A stretch of DNA of 64,000 nucleotides from Pyxidicoccus sp. MSG2 (GTDB lineage: Bacteria > Myxococcota > Myxococcia > Myxococcales > Myxococcaceae), in contig NZ_JAPNKC010000001.1 of NCBI RefSeq assembly GCF_026626705.1, forward strand, positions 9,628,001-9,692,000. The letters run 5' to 3'. A program made the position numbers and the translations under genes. Below the pieces are notes generated by a model. The model saw only the letters and a list, made by a program, of their open reading frames with translations, was not told the origin of the DNA and did not search any database. Below are positions 3,334-37,217 of the stretch, one piece after another; positions within the stretch are counted from its first letter, which is position 1, and each line of letters opens with the position of its first letter.

Positions 3334-4707
3334 ATGCCCGCACCGCACCCGCTGCTGCTCGTGGATGACGACGCCGCCTTCCGCAAGGTGTACGGCGGCC
3401 TGCTGCGCGAGTCGGGCTACGAAGTCACGGAGGCCGCGGACCGCCCCTCCGCCCGCGCCGCCTTCGACGCCCGGGACTTCCCCCTCGTCCTGTTGGACCT
3501 GATGCTCCCGCCCGACGGCAGCGTGAAGGCGGGGCTGGAGGGGCTCGCCGCGCTGCTGAGCGCGAGGCCCGGCACCAAGGTCATCGTCACCTCCGGGGCA
3601 GGGGACACGCGCCACACGCTGGAGGCCGTTCGCCTGGGCGCCTACGACTTCCTGACCAAGCCGGTGGACCCGGACGTGCTGCTCGTCGTGGTACAGCGCG
3701 CCCTCGCCCGCGTGACGCTGGAGCGGCAGGTGGAGTCGCTGCGCACGTCGCTGGCGCGCGCTGGAGGCGACACCGCGTTGGTGGGGCAGAGCCCGCCATT
3801 CCTCGCGGCCGTGACCCTCGCCGAGCGCGTGGCCCCGAGCGACATCCCGGTGCTCGTCACGGGGGAGAACGGCACCGGCAAGGAGTTGCTCGCGCGAACG
3901 GTGCACCTCAAGAGCCGCCGCCATGCCGGGCCCTTCGTCCCCATCAACTGCGGCGCCCTGCCGGAGTCGCTGCTGGAGAGTGCCCTCTTCGGCCATGTGA
4001 AGGGCAGCTTCACCGGCGCGACGAAGGACCACCGCGGCCTCTTCGCGGAGGCGGACGGGGGCACGCTCTTCCTGGACGAATTGGGCGACATGACGCCGTC
4101 GCTCCAGGTCAAGGTGCTGCGCGCGCTGGAGACGGGCGACATCCTCCCGGTGGGCGCGGACCTGCCGGTGAAGGTGGACGTGCGGCTCATCTCCGCCACG
4201 CACCAGGACCTGGGCCGAATGCAACAGGAGGGCACCTTCCGCGAGGACCTCTACTGGCGCGTGAAGGGCGTGGAGATCCGCCTGCCACCGCTGCGCGAGC
4301 GCGCCTCGGACCTGCCGCTCCTGGCGAAGCACTTCCTCAACCAGTGCGCCCACCTGTGCCCGGACGGGCGCGCCCGGCTGCTGTCGGACGCGGCCGCCGA
4401 GGCGCTCGCCGCGCACGCCTGGCCCGGCAACCTGCGCGAGTTGCGGCACGAGATGCAGCGCGCCACCGTGCTCGCCGGAGAGCGCCGCGAAATCCAGCCC
4501 GAGGACCTGTCCTTCACCGGCAGCGAGCGGCCCCACGCCAGCGCGCCCGGCGCCCGCACGCTGGCGCAGAAGGTAGAAGCGCTGGAGCGGCGCGAAATCG
4601 AGGAGGCGCTGAAGCGCTGTGGCGGCAACCGCACGCACACGGCCGAGGCGCTCGGCCTGTCGCGACAGGGCCTGCTCAAGAAGCTGGAGCGCTTCGGCCT
4701 GACGTGA
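3334..4707 (+). CDS. Sigma-54-dependent response regulator (NtrC family)
   Basis: The 457 residues fall into three domains: receiver (1-122, phosphoacceptor D55 in VLLDLMLP, acidic pocket VDDDA), AAA+ activator (about 145-380) and a Fis-type helix-turn-helix (about 415-457, [21 protein letters not shown]). The Walker A is GENGTGKE (177-184). The sigma-54-contacting loop is GSFTGA (224-229) instead of the usual GAFTGA, a substitution that some active members tolerate. Walker B is [10 protein letters not shown]. Phosphorylation should trigger oligomerisation and promoter opening by RNA polymerase-sigma54. No histidine kinase lies next to it, so its partner is encoded elsewhere. Confidence 0.93.
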
Positions 4708-31693: not shown

Positions 31694-31786
31694 ACGAAGG
31701 TGGCGGGACGGACGGTGTAACCGGCGGACGGAAGCTGCGTACCGGATGCATCCGCGAACTTCCGACACCCGTAAATGAGGTCCAAC

Positions 31787-32410
31787 ATGTCACCCCGTTT
31801 CCTCGCGCTCGTCGCCCTCCTGTCCCTGCCCGCGCTCGCCGCGGAGCCCGCCGCCACGACGCAGGCCTTCGTCTTCAATGACCCGAACAGCCGCGACACC
31901 GTGGCCTTCATGCTGGACGCGCCGCTGGAGGTCATCAACGGCCTGTCCAACCAGGTGAAGGGCCGCGTCGAGGTGAAGGGCAACAAGGCGAGCGGGAAGT
32001 TCCAGGTGCCCGTGAAGTCCATCAAGACGGGCAACGAGACGCGCGATGGGCACCTCCAGAATGACCGCTGGCTGGACGCCGCGAAGTCCCCGGACATCAC
32101 CTTCGAGTTCGCCGACCTGGCGCTCCCCGCCGCGCTGGAGCCGGGCAAGCCGCTGAAGGTGCAGGGCAAGGGCCGCTTCACCGTGCACGGAGTCACGCGC
32201 GAGGAGCCGGTGGAAGTCACGGCCACGTACTTCAAGGAGTCCGCCGAGACGAAGAATCGCGCCGCCGGTGACCTGCTGCGCGTGCGCGCGAAGTTCCAGA
32301 TTCCGCTCGAGGCCTACGGCATCAAGCGGACGGAAGCGTTGGTGCTCAAGGTGGGCGAGACCGCCGAGGTCTCTGTCGACGCCTGGGGTTCCACGCAGTT
32401 CAAGCTGTAG
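31787..32410 (+). CDS. YceI family periplasmic protein
   Basis: A 207-residue secreted protein with a signal peptide (FLALVALLSLPALAAEP) and a lipocalin-like YceI domain: NSRDTVAFMLDAPLEVINGL, the WLDAAKSPDITFEF strand and the terminal VSVDAWGSTQFKL. YceI proteins bind isoprenoid or other lipophilic molecules in the periplasm. ATG 31787 has GAGG eight bases upstream; ATG 31775 lacks one. The next gene, a Cys-repeat peptide, starts 52 bases downstream, so it may belong to the same transcription unit as the MNIO cluster. Confidence 0.88.
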   Translation: MSPRFLALVALLSLPALAAEPAATTQAFVFNDPNSRDTVAFMLDAPLEVINGLSNQVKGRVEVKGNKASGKFQVPVKSIKTGNETRDGHLQNDRWLDAAKSPDITFEFADLALPAALEPGKPLKVQGKGRFTVHGVTREEPVEVTATYFKESAETKNRAAGDLLRVRAKFQIPLEAYGIKRTEALVLKVGETAEVSVDAWGSTQFKL

Positions 32411-32462
32411 CAACTCGAGCCGTACCTCACCCCCCAAAGCAGTCTCGAAAGGAAGCAACACC

Positions 32463-32732
32463 ATGAACGTCAAGACCCTCGCGGCGATCGTCGGCACCCT
32501 CTCCCTGTCCGCGCTGGCCACCGGCTGTGCGTCCACCAAGTCCGCGGAGGCCCAGCCGGCCACCGCCGAGAAGGGCGCCGAGGGCAGCTGCGGCGCGAAG
32601 GCCACCGAGGCGAAGGGCGCCGAGGGCGGCTGCAGCGGCCAGAAGCAGGAGGGCGCTGCTCCCGCCGCGACCCCGGAGAAGGGCGCCGAGGGCAGCTGCG
32701 GCTCCGGTTCCTGTGGCGGCGCGAAGAAGTAA
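32463..32732 (+). CDS. HvfA/bufferin-like precursor peptide with EGSCG repeats
   Basis: An 89-residue protein with a Sec signal and possible lipobox (LSALATGC, C22). The mature part repeats a KGAEG-x-C unit three times: KGAEGSCG (37-44), KGAEGGCS (51-58) and KGAEGSCG (73-80), plus a final GSCGG (82-86); cysteines are 22, 43, 57, 79 and 84. In Haemophilus HvfA the Cys in EGKCG repeats are turned into oxazolone/thioamide groups by HvfB with HvfC. The two downstream genes encode such partners, so this is inferred to be the substrate, a ribosomally made and modified, metal-binding peptide. Lys of EGKCG is Ser or Gly here. It begins 52 bases after yceI. Confidence 0.85.
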   Translation: MNVKTLAAIVGTLSLSALATGCASTKSAEAQPATAEKGAEGSCGAKATEAKGAEGGCSGQKQEGAAPAATPEKGAEGSCGSGSCGGAKK

Positions 32733-32838
32733 TCGCGCTTCATGCCGGGGGCCGGTGAATGCCGGCCTCTGATCGCGGGCGGTGGGAGGAATGCTCCCGC
32801 CGCCCGTGTCGTTCGTACCCCCTGAGGAGGAGTCCCCG

Positions 32839-33687
32839 GTGGTTGCAACCTACGCGAGCCGACACGGGCTGAAGCCGCTGGGCGCGGGCATCGGGTTGAG
32901 GCGGAGCTTCTACGAGGAGCTGCCCCGCACCGAGCGCTCGCTCGACTGGGTGGAAATCATCCCGGAGAACTTCCTCACGCTGGGAGGAAGGCCGCAGCGC
33001 ACCCTGGACGCCTGCGCGGAGCGGTGGCCGGTGCTGCCGCATGGCGTGGGGCTCGACATCGGCGGGCCGGATGCGCTGGACGGGGACTACGTCACCCGGC
33101 TGGCGGCGCTGGTGGCGCGCGTGGATGCGCCGTTCTTCTCGGACCACCTCTGCTACTCACGGCTGGACGGCGTGTACCTGCACGACCTGTTGCCGCTGCC
33201 CTTCACCGAGGCCGCCGTGGAGCACGTGGTGCCGCGCGTGCGTGAAGTCATGGCGCGCGTGGGCCGGCCCTTCCTGCTGGAGAACCCGAGCTACTACGCG
33301 AACATGCCGGGCGGCACGCTGCCCGAGGCGGACTTCCTGCGGCACGTGGTGGAAGAGGCGGACTGCGGCCTGCTGCTGGACGTGAACAACGTCTACGTCA
33401 ACGCGCTCAACCACGGGTACGACGCGCGCGCCTTCGTGGACGCGCTGCCGCTGGAGCGGGTGGTGCAGGTCCACCTGGCCGGCCACACGCGCTACCCGGA
33501 CGTCATCATCGACACGCACGGCGACCGCGTCTGCGGCGACGTGTGGTCGCTTTATGAGTACGTGCTGCGACGCACCGGTCCGGTGGCGACGCTCATCGAG
33601 TGGGACCAGGACATCCCCTCGCTGGACGCGGTGCTGGACGAGGCGGACGTGGCGCGCGCCGCGCTGCGGAAGGTGGCGGAGCGATGA
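32839..33687 (+). CDS. DUF692 / MNIO (multinuclear non-heme iron-dependent oxidase), HvfB/BufB-like
   Basis: A 282-residue TIM-barrel protein of the DUF692 family. Likely metal ligands by family analogy are H68 (LPHGV), H103 (FFSDHLCYS), E148 (LLENPS), D181 and N184 (LLLDVNNVYV), H212 (VHLAGH), D225 and H227 (IIDTHGD) and E254 (TLIEWDQD). Members oxidise cysteines of a partner peptide using two or three iron ions and oxygen. GTG 32839 was chosen since GAGGAGG lies eight bases upstream; an earlier in-frame ATG at 32791 would add 16 residues but has its purine run touching the codon. It follows the precursor gene by 106 bases and overlaps the next gene by four. Confidence 0.9.
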   Translation: MVATYASRHGLKPLGAGIGLRRSFYEELPRTERSLDWVEIIPENFLTLGGRPQRTLDACAERWPVLPHGVGLDIGGPDALDGDYVTRLAALVARVDAPFFSDHLCYSRLDGVYLHDLLPLPFTEAAVEHVVPRVREVMARVGRPFLLENPSYYANMPGGTLPEADFLRHVVEEADCGLLLDVNNVYVNALNHGYDARAFVDALPLERVVQVHLAGHTRYPDVIIDTHGDRVCGDVWSLYEYVLRRTGPVATLIEWDQDIPSLDAVLDEADVARAALRKVAER

Positions 33688-34421
33688 AGCCGGGGCTGAA
33701 GCACTTCTTCGACAGCATGGGCGCGTACTTCGCCCGCCCCGGCGCGCAGTCGCTGGACGCGCTGTACGCGGAGCACCCCGGCTGGGACGCGCCGCGCGGC
33801 CGTGTCTCCGTCTATGGCGACTTCGTGCGCGGGCACGTGCGCGGCGTGCTGGACAAGGTCTTCCCGCTGGTGCGCAAGGCGGTGGAGGCCGAGCCCTGGG
33901 ACGCCCTGGTGGAGGCCTACACGCTGACGCGGCCGGCGCGGCACCACGAATTGAACCACCTGGCCGAGGGCTTCCCGGCCTTCGTCGCGGACGCGGCGGC
34001 GCCGCGGGGGCTCGCGGCCTTCGTGCCGGCGCTGGCCCGCTTCGAGTGGACGGACTTCGCGGTGTTCGCCTCCGAGGCCCCGCCGGAGCGGGTGGAGCGA
34101 CTGACGGCCAACCCCACGCTCGCGGTGCTGGAGCACCCCTACCGGCTCTGCGCGTACGTGCGCGCGCAGGGGACGCTGCCGGAGCCGGAGGCGGGGGAGG
34201 AACTGGCCCTGCTGTGGCGTCACCCGGAGCACCTGGTGACGTACTACGTGGAGGCCACGCCGCCCGCGCTGCTGGTGCTGAAGATGGCGGTGGAGGGACT
34301 GGCCGTCGCCGACGTGGCCGCGGCCACCGGCATGCCCGAGGCGGAGCTGCGGGGCGCGGTGGAGCGCTTCTCCCGCGACGGCCTGGTGCTGGCTCCGGCT
34401 CCGGGTGGCTCCAGGGACTGA
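33684..34421 (+). CDS. DUF2063 protein, HvfC/BufC-like peptide-recognition partner
   Basis: A 245-residue protein with the DUF2063 N-terminal region (SVYGDFVRGHVRGVLDKVFPLVRKAV) and a C-terminal part about 150-245 that includes a winged-helix-like segment (GLAVADVAAATGMPEAELRGAVERFSRDGLVL). In MNIO systems the DUF2063 protein binds the oxidase and the leader of the precursor peptide. The start ATG overlaps the MNIO stop (ATGA at 33684-33687), so the two are translationally coupled. No DoxX gene follows; the next gene is convergent, nine bases away. Confidence 0.88.
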   Translation: MKPGLKHFFDSMGAYFARPGAQSLDALYAEHPGWDAPRGRVSVYGDFVRGHVRGVLDKVFPLVRKAVEAEPWDALVEAYTLTRPARHHELNHLAEGFPAFVADAAAPRGLAAFVPALARFEWTDFAVFASEAPPERVERLTANPTLAVLEHPYRLCAYVRAQGTLPEPEAGEELALLWRHPEHLVTYYVEATPPALLVLKMAVEGLAVADVAAATGMPEAELRGAVERFSRDGLVLAPAPGGSRD

Positions 34422-34430
34422 AGTCCCCGC

Positions 34431-37217
34431 CTACTGTGCCGAGTACCGCGCCACACCCTTCGGGGTGGCGATGTAGCGGACACCCTCCGGCGTCGCGAGC
34501 AGTGCGCGCACGTCCGAGTCGGGCAGCCCCTCGTTGGTGCCGAACGGGGTGACGATGTCGGCGGCCACGTCGTAGCGCACCAGCCCGTCCCTCGTGCCGG
34601 CCCACAGCACGTCGCGCGTGCCGGCCTCCGTGGTCCGCCGCTCGAAGTGGAGCGCCGTCACCCGCTCGTCCGACAACTCCCACGGCGCGGCGCGCAGCGC
34701 GGGGCCAGGGCTGCCCAGCGCGCTGAAGCCCCTGCGCGTCCCCACGAAGACCTGCCCCTCCGGGCCCACCGCCACGGACAGCACGTCCAGGTCAGGCACC
34801 TCGGGCGGCACGTGGAACGCCACCGAGACGTCGGCGAGCGCCGGCTCGAAGTCGTTCCCCGCGGTCAGGGTCAGCTCGGCCAGGCCGGCGGATGTCGCGG
34901 CCCAGGCCTTCACTCGCGTGGATGTGGACCGGGGTGAGAAGACCACCTGCCGCACCACGCGCCCCTCCAGCAGTCGCTGGCCGACGATGGTGCCGGCGCG
35001 CCCACCCGCGGAGGGGTTGCTCGCGCGGGTGAGGATGAGCCCCCGGCCCGTGCCCAGCAGCAGCAGGTCCGGAGCCTCCCTCACGGCCATCGCCGTCACG
35101 CGGTCTTCCGTGGCGCCCAGCGGCCCGCCCGTGAAGCGCGTGCACGTATTCTCCACGCACCGGTGCACGCCGCCACCGTCCGTGCCCACGAAGAGCACCT
35201 CGCCGGTGGAGGTGCGCAGGGTGGACAGCGCCAGGGCCGGCGCGCTCACGGCCAGCGTCCCCACGGAAGGCTCCGTGCTGAACACCGAGGCCGCGGCGCC
35301 GTCCACGAAGCGCAGCCCGCCGCCGAAATACGCCAGCGCCATGGCGGACTCATTCGCGCCCGTCACGACGTCCATCAACCGAGGCCGCCCGGTGGGAAGC
35401 ACCGTGAAGGAGGCCGCGGCCCGGCCCACCGCGCCGTCGCGGACCTCGGCGAGCAGCATCACCGTGTGCCGGCCCACGCCGGGCGCGGTGAGGGTGACGA
35501 CGGGGCTGTTGCCCGCGCCCACCTCCACCTGGCCGCCCAGGCTGTCCAGCCACGCCAGCCTCGAGAGGGCAGTCGGAACTTTCAGGTCGTTCACGGAGCC
35601 GGTGGCGATGATGGGCTGCCCCTCGCGGCACGGCTCCTCGAGGCAGTCGGTGTCGCCCTGGCGCAGGGCCTCCACGCGGACCTCGGGCGCCCCGTTCACC
35701 GTCACGGAGACGGTGGCGGCGCAGGCCAGGCCCCAGGGGTCCGTCACGGTGAGCGTCAGCACGTGCGTGCCCGGGGTGGTCAGCCGGTTGGTGGTGGTGC
35801 CCGCACCTCTCGCCAGCGCCCCGTCACGCGAGGACGTCCAGACGAAGCGCAAATCTCCCTGCGGGTCCTCCGCGTCCGTGGCCGAGCCCGCCAGCGTCAG
35901 CGTCCGCCCGGCATTCCCCACCGCGCCTGGACGGGGCGCCTGGATGGCGCAGCCCGAAGGGGCCGAGTTGACGATGACGCGCACCTGTTGCCGCGCGCAG
36001 CCGCGCAGCGTCGCGTCCTCCGGGTCCACCGCGCAGGCGGTGAGCGTCTGCGCGCCGGCCACGGTGAAGACGGTGTCCAGGACCTCGCCCGTGCCCAGCG
36101 GCGTGGAGGACACGCTGGTGGCCCAGGTGGGTGCCACCGTCGCGCCCGTCTCCGGGTCCACGCACCGGCCGCGCAGCGTACTGGACGCGCCCCGAAGCAG
36201 CCGCGCACTGGCGAGCGGCGCGTCGATTTCGCACCACGGGGGCAGGTTGGTGACGAGCCGGATGCGGACGCTGTCGGTGGCCGCGTTGCCCTGGCCGTCC
36301 ACCGCGCGCGCCGTCACCGTGTACTCACCGGGCTCGGTGAAGGTGTGCTCCAGGGAGGGCCCTTCGCCGAGCTCGATGCTCCCCGGCTCCAGCACCCACC
36401 GGATGACGCCGTCCAGGTTGCCCGCGCCGCTGTCGGCGTTGAAGTCCTGCGCCGTGGCGCGGAAGAGGAGGGTGGACGCGAAGGGCACCGGCTCGCCCGT
36501 CTTCACGTACACCTCCGCCTGCTCGGGGCGGGTGATGAGCACCGACGGCGCCCGGGTGGCGCGCACGGTGACGCGCACGGTGGCGGTGGTGCTGACGCCC
36601 GTGTCCGGGTCCGTCGCGGTGCAGGTGAGGGTGTCCTCGCCCGCCACCCGCAGCGTGGTCCGCGCCGTCTCGCCCGGGGGCAGCGGCCCCGTCAGGGCGG
36701 ACGTCCAGTGCACCGCGCCGCCCGTCAGCCGCAAGCCGCCGACGGTGCGGGCCTCGCACTCCAGATCCAGCGGCTCACCCAGGTTGAAGGCGCTGCCGGC
36801 CGCGGGGCGGAGCACGCTCGCGGCGGGCGCGCCCGTGCCCAGGACATTCAGCCTCAGCGACGCGCTGGAGACCTGGCCACCCGAGTCCACCACCGTGGCC
36901 GTCAGCGTCACGTCGCCCTCCTCGCGGAAGGTGGCGGTGGCGCGCACGCCTCGGGTGAGCTGCCCTTCCCGCGAGGACACCCAGAGCACGCTGTCGCCCA
37001 GCGCGTCGCCGTCCTCCGCGTCCTCGACGTGCGCCTCGAACTCCACGGGCTGGCCCACGCGCAGCCCCGTCGCGGCTTCCGGACGGAGGATGCGCAGCAC
37101 GGGCGCGGCGTTGGGGGCGGGCTGCGACGGGCCCGGGGGCGTGTCACAGGCCCAGAGGCTGGCGGAGACGAGGGCTACCAGGGCCAGCCGGGCACGAAGG
37201 TGGGGCCGGGGATTCAC
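34431..37217 (-). CDS. Large lipoprotein with Ig/PKD-like repeats and a propeller-like C-terminus
   Basis: A 928-residue lipoprotein (SASLWAC lipobox). About residues 35-600 hold six or so immunoglobulin/PKD-like repeats of about 95 residues, each with a F/V-x-W-x-S core such as DALGDSVLWVSSREGQLTRG and a closing SVTVN-type strand. From about 610 to the end, motifs such as VLFVGTDGGGVHRC, LLLGTGRGLILTR, VFVGTRRGFSALG, VLWAGTRDGLVRYD and RYIATPKGVARY form blades of a two-component-regulator-type beta-propeller. It is probably an outer-membrane sensor or adhesion scaffold. It is the last gene of the five-gene sigma-factor operon, three bases after the previous stop. Confidence 0.85.
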   Translation of the reverse strand: MNPRPHLRARLALVALVSASLWACDTPPGPSQPAPNAAPVLRILRPEAATGLRVGQPVEFEAHVEDAEDGDALGDSVLWVSSREGQLTRGVRATATFREEGDVTLTATVVDSGGQVSSASLRLNVLGTGAPAASVLRPAAGSAFNLGEPLDLECEARTVGGLRLTGGAVHWTSALTGPLPPGETARTTLRVAGEDTLTCTATDPDTGVSTTATVRVTVRATRAPSVLITRPEQAEVYVKTGEPVPFASTLLFRATAQDFNADSGAGNLDGVIRWVLEPGSIELGEGPSLEHTFTEPGEYTVTARAVDGQGNAATDSVRIRLVTNLPPWCEIDAPLASARLLRGASSTLRGRCVDPETGATVAPTWATSVSSTPLGTGEVLDTVFTVAGAQTLTACAVDPEDATLRGCARQQVRVIVNSAPSGCAIQAPRPGAVGNAGRTLTLAGSATDAEDPQGDLRFVWTSSRDGALARGAGTTTNRLTTPGTHVLTLTVTDPWGLACAATVSVTVNGAPEVRVEALRQGDTDCLEEPCREGQPIIATGSVNDLKVPTALSRLAWLDSLGGQVEVGAGNSPVVTLTAPGVGRHTVMLLAEVRDGAVGRAAASFTVLPTGRPRLMDVVTGANESAMALAYFGGGLRFVDGAAASVFSTEPSVGTLAVSAPALALSTLRTSTGEVLFVGTDGGGVHRCVENTCTRFTGGPLGATEDRVTAMAVREAPDLLLLGTGRGLILTRASNPSAGGRAGTIVGQRLLEGRVVRQVVFSPRSTSTRVKAWAATSAGLAELTLTAGNDFEPALADVSVAFHVPPEVPDLDVLSVAVGPEGQVFVGTRRGFSALGSPGPALRAAPWELSDERVTALHFERRTTEAGTRDVLWAGTRDGLVRYDVAADIVTPFGTNEGLPDSDVRALLATPEGVRYIATPKGVARYSAQ

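Follow-up and report, generated by a model that had tools for sequence, protein, structure and literature searches.

Our analysis of a 64,000-nucleotide stretch of the Pyxidicoccus sp. MSG2 genome (here referred to as the window; contig NZ_JAPNKC010000001.1, positions 9,628,001 to 9,692,000) revealed what is probably an operon for a ribosomally synthesized and posttranslationally modified peptide (RiPP) of the oxazolin/captophorin kind, one that would supply the Myxococcaceae with an envelope-held, metal-binding 5-thiooxazole lipopeptide under the control of an extracytoplasmic function (ECF) sigma factor of the ECF16/sigma-F type. Of this reading, the gene content and order, the enzyme families with their predicted folds, the conserved Cys pattern and lipobox, and the promoter element with its distribution were observed directly, and modification, lipidation, metal binding, and induction are predicted. 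We class the system as a lineage variant within the oxazolin/captophorin kind, its precursor being lipoprotein-like, and do not regard it as a new kind. All its genes lie on the plus strand. The precursor peptide P0001 (89 amino acids; positions 32463-32732, coding at 32463-32729 plus stop) was recognized as an open reading frame (ORF) and by orthologue alignment. It is followed by an MNIO of the DUF692/PF05114 family, P0002 (32839-33687), and by its DUF2063/PME-type-1 partner, P0003 (33684-34421), which overlap by 4 bp (ATGA at 33684-33687). The longest ORF of the MNIO starts at 32782; however, because homologues such as that of locus L006 begin at VVATYA, the start is probably the GTG at 32839, which gives 282 amino acids. 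Upstream, 52 bp before the peptide start, ends the gene of a YceI-like secreted protein, P0004 (211 amino acids; 31775-32410, with an alternative Met start at 31787, codon 5), which matched PF04264 with 79.2 bits (cut-off of 23.7) and is probably the first gene of the operon. Beyond the DUF2063 gene, the nearest long frame is on the minus strand (34431-37217). The original prediction, made from the sequence alone, had placed a Cys-repeat peptide, a DUF692 protein, and an overlapping DUF2063 protein between 31787 and 34421. All three were recovered there as ORFs, and its overall reading of an MNIO, a DUF2063 protein, and a secreted, lipoprotein-like Cys-repeat precursor in one myxobacterial operon held; however, position 31787 falls within the YceI gene, of which it made no mention, the MNIO start probably differs, and neither the separate repeat type nor the chemistry that it quoted could be retained.

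To describe the precursor, we compared it with its counterparts at 69 orthologous loci, that is, those fetched among the matches listed whose MNIO shares more than 70% identity with that of the window (63 primary loci and 6 second copies); L-numbers denote loci fetched from relatives, G-numbers denote genomes of the window's family, and the repeat stretches L001, L072, L077, L079, and L080 were omitted from the counts. The window peptide contains three KGAEG-x-C units (Cys43, Cys57, and Cys79) plus GSCGG (Cys84), the core pentads being EGSCG, EGGCS, EGSCG, and SGSCG, respectively, and it lacks repeated EGKCG pentads. Its signal peptide ends in a lipobox, LATG followed by Cys22 (codon at 32526-32528). 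A lipobox-type pattern, which we take to resemble PROSITE PS51257, fits all 69 orthologous peptides as a pattern match made with no signal-peptide predictor, and Cys22 is followed by Ala in 67 of them and by Val in 2. The precursor therefore appears lipoprotein-like, as had been allowed from the start. Counting every Cys after the first as a core Cys, the 69 peptides, 67 of them different, hold 261 core Cys, preceded by S (159), G (48), K (20), N (11), T (9), A (7), or Q (7) and followed by G (186), S (57), N (8), K (6), A (3), or H (1). Among the pentads, EGSCG (48), AGSCG (26), and EGKCG (15) are the most frequent. Cys22, Cys79, and Cys84 are invariant in a 38-row peptide alignment, and the terminal Cys pair is spaced five residues apart in 69 of 69 peptides. 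Repeated EGKCG occurs in the orthologues L035, L041, L042, and L129, which belong to the same MNIO tree as the Lys-free loci, and the sequence EGKCGEGKCG appears in same-slot orthologues. Because same-slot orthologues carry EGKCG, and because the repeats vary among orthologues (S at 159 and K at 20 of the 261 positions before Cys), the EGSCG repeats are not the separate type that had been proposed; judged by their sequences, the EGSCG-type and the canonical EGKCG-type are variants of one orthologous precursor.

The MNIO matched PF05114 with 344.5 bits (cut-off of 25), which places it in the superfamily, and the BufB model NF050167 with 321.1 bits (cut-off of 310); against the HvfB equivalog NF003818 it reached 286 bits, below the cut-off of 360. 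AlphaFold models of the MNIO and of the DUF2063 protein, built on alignments of the window and its loci, had mean predicted local distance difference test (pLDDT) values of 93.9 and 93.4, respectively, and Foldseek matched the predicted MNIO to 3bww (E value of 3.3e-24, root mean square deviation of 1.9) and also to TglH and MbnB. The candidate iron ligands, assigned by conservation (P0002 numbering: H87, H122, E167, D200, H231, D244, H246, and E273), align with those three structures and do not vary among the 30 MNIOs aligned, in line with the full set of likely metal ligands predicted for the DUF692 protein. According to PMC13097082, Arg15 and Arg16 of FonB adjoin the substrate Glu, Phe250 adjoins repeat positions 3 (Lys) and 5 (Gly), and in Cys-Lys MNIOs the Phe250 place is taken by Asp; the same source describes FonBC as tolerating Ala, Arg, or Thr at position 3 and only Gly or Ala at position 5, after the Cys, and as requiring a two-repeat substrate with five-residue Cys spacing. 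We tentatively mapped the FonB numbers onto the window's MNIO family via 3bww, using the 45 of the 69 loci that were fetched first. The Arg pair reads GLRR in 44 of 45 orthologous MNIOs (GLRK in L010), and the Phe250 place, residue 257 of the window MNIO when counted from the GTG at 32839, is Gln in 44 of 45 (Ala in L047). Locus L074 (3381-3933, minus-strand coordinates), from the same bacterial family, encodes EGKCG repeats fused to a sequence that by eye looks EF-hand-like; its MNIO, a paralogue of the HvfB class (411.9 bits; cut-off of 360), has both Arg residues and the Phe. Among the 11 loci L055 to L066 except L058, the second residue of the pair is never Arg and the Phe250 place is Glu or Asp in 10 (Thr in L055), and 9 of them, all save L057 and L063, have a six-Cys precursor, which we take to be Buf2-like. 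This Gln is compatible with looser recognition of repeat positions 3 and 5, and it permits rather than dictates Lys-free repeats, since EGKCG orthologues also have Gln. Together with the mostly Lys-free repeats, it is among the best new elements of the system.

The partner P0003 scored 54.1 bits against PF09836 (DUF2063; cut-off of 27.2), and its predicted fold was matched by Foldseek to 3dee/NGO1945 (E value of 2.8e-6, TMt of 0.75) and to TglI 8hi7_A (E value of 2.5e-5); by sequence alone, the match to 3dee was weak (E value of 0.024). Its PF09836 score and the two-domain NGO1945 fold, the C-terminal domain being of the RiPP recognition element (RRE) type by fold match, place it in PME type 1, defined as DUF2063 plus RRE. 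P0003 was also hit by the SbtM radical-SAM maturase model TIGR04082, whose N-terminal region aligns to residues 91 to 240 with 53 bits (cut-off of 350), and the two perhaps have a recognition domain in common.

Oxazolin (HvfABC) and the captophorins fontiphorin and gonophorin share with the window system a Sec-secreted Cys-repeat precursor, an MNIO, a DUF2063 partner, pentad-spaced Cys, and the MNIO Arg pair; the window system differs from them in its mostly Lys-free repeats, the Gln at the Phe250 place, the YceI gene in front, and the lack of DoxX in the operon. The kinship with HvfABC-type systems that had been predicted was thus upheld, whereas the oxazolone/thioamide chemistry quoted for them has been reassigned to 5-thiooxazole (PMC13097082, PMC13419390). 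The lipidated oxazolin system NedABC of Neisseria dentiae, whose NedA was made in Escherichia coli as described in PMC12636315, is likewise built from a precursor with a lipoprotein signal and EG-x-CG repeats, an MNIO, and a partner, and it sets a precedent for a membrane-anchored product. That source reports EGKCG repeats and demonstrated triacylation and modification for NedA, both of which are only predicted for the window peptide. The Buf_EGKCG/oxazolin family also combines a secreted EG-x-CG repeat precursor before the MNIO with a PME-type-1 partner; PMC12452194 describes it as mostly from Pseudomonadota and with EGKCG, and its main text does not name Myxococcota. A literature word search for EGSCG returned nothing on MNIOs by title and abstract opening; PMC13097082, which charts 6,906 repeat-bearing precursors, may list such peptides.

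We propose that the DUF2063 protein would bind the precursor and present it to the diiron MNIO, which in the cytoplasm would remove four electrons from each core Cys that it acts on, chiefly the invariant Cys79 and Cys84, and so convert them to 5-thiooxazoles (minus 4 Da per Cys). The modified peptide would then be exported by Sec, lipidated at Cys22, and retained at the cell envelope, where it may bind copper or a similar soft metal. It seems unlikely that the same cluster, acting on the same substrate, yields another product or serves another role, through a different Cys oxidation or with a metal or oxidant other than copper. MNIO chemistry does vary by subfamily (PMC12452194), the Gln at the Phe250 place implies different active-site surroundings, and the Caulobacter sigma-F, whose regulon is described as copper-induced and whose loss as causing copper sensitivity (PMC8224329), also answers chromium and cadmium (PMC3511200); however, all characterized MNIO-PME1 cases are said to install 5-thiooxazoles (PMC13097082), and the pentad spacing of the terminal Cys pair is kept throughout the orthologues.

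Several results weigh against the overall reading. Against the HvfA/oxazolin precursor model NF050188, the window peptide reached 16.6 bits, far under the cut-off of 95 (among 38 scanned relatives, 13 matched NF050188 and 10 matched KCGExKCG_twice, at E values of up to 1), and P0003 reached 59.9 bits against the HvfC equivalog NF050145, under the cut-off of 142. Moreover, 57 of the 261 core Cys, Cys57 of the window included, precede Ser; because FonBC accepts only Gly or Ala at position 5, Cys57 (EGGCS) is the least certain modification site. A Microbulbifer EGKCG cluster is described as not copper-responsive (PMC12538549). DoxX was considered as a missing partner, and none of the nine DoxX matches in the genome lies at the operon.

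When the window's family was searched, 86 of 96 genomes had an MNIO match, and 60 of 92 had clear peptide-profile matches (62 of 92 at E values of up to 0.001, two of them weak). At all 69 orthologous loci, a homologous Cys-peptide gene stands upstream of the MNIO gene and a DUF2063 match lies on the same strand, which exceeds what chance would give. The locus was also seen in named relatives, among them Pyxidicoccus caerfyrddinensis, Myxococcus xanthus, Corallococcus, Archangium, Hyalangium, and Citreicoccus, the closest being Pyxidicoccus and Myxococcus, and these names point to the Myxococcaceae as the window's family. At 80 named loci, the peptide profile matched 28 times and DUF2063 61 times. 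One record titled Comamonas sp. KCTC 72670 (L157) holds a Myxococcus-like locus at 87% MNIO identity and is probably a naming error.

Peptide homologues also occur away from any MNIO in seven genomes, with one more at a contig end. The original prediction had named homologues lacking DUF692/DUF2063 neighbors as evidence against itself, and such homologues do exist in the literal sense; however, each of the seven genomes also carries an MNIO locus of the window's family. These orphans and the low score against the HvfA model would suit an unmodified metal-binding or structural lipoprotein, with the MNIO/DUF2063 pair acting on some other target. We regard this as highly improbable, given the peptide gene just upstream in every orthologous MNIO locus and the MNIO locus in every orphan genome, and bufferins are known to have precursor genes that stand alone (PMC12452194).

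The proposed control of the lipopeptide operon by sigma-F was suggested by a promoter-like element of the ECF16/sigma-F type, TGTAACC-N15-CGTA (31716-31741, plus strand), whose GTAACC starts 58 bp ahead of the YceI start codon and which has a single match in the window against 0.02 expected. At 45 orthologous loci, a scan reaching 300 bp from the first gene recovered GTAACC-N15/16-CGTA exactly at 23 and with at most one mismatch at 27; by comparison, 299 permuted motifs gave at most 1 exact match and at most 10 with up to one mismatch, and the reversed and reverse-complemented sequences gave 0. Where found, the element precedes the YceI gene if this is intact and otherwise the peptide gene. 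The Caulobacter sigma-F element is reported as GTAACC-N16-CGAA on two DUF2282-DUF692-DUF2063 operons (PMC3511200), and the consensus of ECF group 16 as tGTAACc-N16-CGAA (PMC3420878); the −10 sequence CGTA of the window is one base off CGAA. The promoter resembles the sigma-F/ECF16 element of these related operons, and the apparent link to sigma-F is a new element of the system. As described in PMC3511200 and PMC8224329, the Caulobacter sigma-F/NrsF bufferin-type operons likewise have an MNIO and DUF2063 behind a GTAACC-type promoter, with sigF and nrsF in the genome; they differ in the DUF2282-type precursor, the CGAA −10 sequence, and a sigF with such a promoter of its own. CorE was also considered as the regulator and is a possible one; the CorE literature as available to us gives no motif letters for comparison.

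In the window genome, the only NrsF gene (P0007) overlaps an ECF sigma gene (P0006) and is followed by a DUF1223 gene preceded by the element, about 2 Mb from the operon. The sigma factor whose gene adjoins that of this anti-sigma factor would act in trans to start transcription at the ECF16/sigma-F promoter, and metal or oxidant stress may be the trigger. A DUF1223 gene beside sigF-nrsF was detected at 5 of 30 sigma loci, the window's own included, and the element precedes it in 5 of 5. Where the sigma gene is present, the element accompanies a peptide unit in 48 of 53 genomes (the MNIO locus in 45 of 53); where the gene is absent, it does so in 0 of 9. In this count, G025 was entered as positive since the element stands before the peptide gene, its YceI match being a remnant, and G036, G038, and G039 were entered as positive because the element accompanies a YceI-peptide pair apart from the MNIO locus; the six second MNIO copies were tallied on their own, and L128 (G021) was left out because its YceI gene runs off the contig. 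The nine sigma-less genomes belong to the window's genus and measure 9.0 to 9.5 Mb, and their best sigma match (E values of 1.2e-41 to 3.0e-45) is a paralogue. Since they form one clade, they represent one co-loss and hence one supporting event. On the tree, the element was lost three times, and the sigma gene changed once if G021, a draft genome with no strong sigma match (best E value of 3.6e-46), is coded as sigma-present and twice if it is coded as absent; a sign test on independent pairs had a single pair and no significance.

Other results weigh against sigma-F control. A genome-wide count of TGTAACC-N15/16-CGTA gave 4 sites, the same as its reversed-pattern control: this operon, the site just downstream of the NrsF match, and two before genes with no evident link. 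Because the count equals the control, it is no proof of specificity, and the promoter claim rests on conservation at the orthologous loci. The other 25 of the 30 sigma loci lack the element, which is found in front of none of the sigF genes, unlike in Caulobacter; this slightly lowered our confidence in the overall reading. At the sigma locus L081, near matches occurred at chance (3 found, 2.2 expected). P0007 scored 26.3 bits against the NrsF model, just under the cut-off of 26.8 (27.1 over the frame). Five other loci speak for the link by having a sigF-nrsF pair near an MNIO gene (L050, L065, L136, L137, and L139), but only L050 among them has a related element before the peptide gene, GTAACC-N16-CGTC, and none was found in the other four. 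The element is missing from all six second MNIO copies and from five genomes that have the sigma gene (G037 and the clade of G061, G069, G071, and G072), and Myxococcus xanthus AM003 and M. vastator have the operon without it. The nine sigma-less genomes keep the operon and lack the element; their retention of the operon, together with the five sigma-positive genomes lacking the element, the genome-wide count, and the bare sigF, would be expected if the link were accidental and the conserved element were read by another ECF sigma factor. We consider this improbable, since the element is missing from all nine sigma-less genomes, is present wherever DUF1223 adjoins nrsF, accompanies a separate YceI-peptide pair in L140, L144, and L145, and resembles the ECF16 consensus.

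That pair, apart from any MNIO and with the element before the YceI gene, which precedes the peptide gene, accounts for three of the seven orphan peptides; in L141, L142, and L146 the element stands before the peptide gene itself, and in L143 none was found. The contig-end peptide L147 also has a YceI gene alongside and the element before it. A YceI match is present at 25 of the 69 orthologous loci (a remnant in L124 and cut by the contig end in L128), and six YceI matches were counted across the 13.3 Mb of the window genome. The YceI-peptide pairing is among the best new elements of the system, in which YceI may act as a co-expressed envelope protein; among the papers listed by our literature search for such a link, none mentions YceI. 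YceI-like genes were also seen within about 3 kb of the Buf2-like six-Cys MNIO loci L060, L062 (by eye), L064, and L066, which would be a further association of YceI with MNIO clusters.

Other MNIO loci were seen alongside those of the window's family. Related loci with 53 to 57% identity (L050 at 3656-3926 and L051 to L053) have precursor repeats reading KGSEKSCKGD, GEKSCSGEKGCSG, or similar. Second MNIO copies in two other genera (L045, L046, L048, and L133 to L135) have longer Cys repeats and no sigma-F-type element, and in L046 and L048 the gene of a small secreted protein, presumably ricin-like, lies upstream of the second copy. At another MNIO of the window genome (L069, 3400-3796, minus-strand coordinates) and in L073 (G054), a precursor-like ORF has a twin-arginine-like start, RRNFMK, and a CPNCGLGG motif that recalls the CPACGM motif of ChrH-type precursors. 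In L054 and L058, the MNIO gene is preceded by a possible large precursor, a lipoprotein-like ORF some 200 residues long in which GCPAGCPA recurs.

Our findings place a RiPP lipopeptide system of the metal-binding type in the Myxococcaceae, while EGKCG systems are otherwise described mainly for Pseudomonadota (PMC12452194). A possible though doubtful extension is that the myxobacteria possess a sigma-F envelope stress module in which a lipid-anchored 5-thiooxazole peptide acts with YceI, and that the MNIO lineage kept the Glu-reading Arg pair, swapped the Lys-facing Phe for Gln, and hence takes Glu-x-Ser-Cys repeats. The family is a natural setting in which to probe MNIO substrate specificity, since close Gln-bearing relatives face Ser-Cys or Lys-Cys repeats. 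It also yields a regulatory prediction, that the operon would be controlled by this sigma factor, and may tie YceI proteins to MNIO chemistry.

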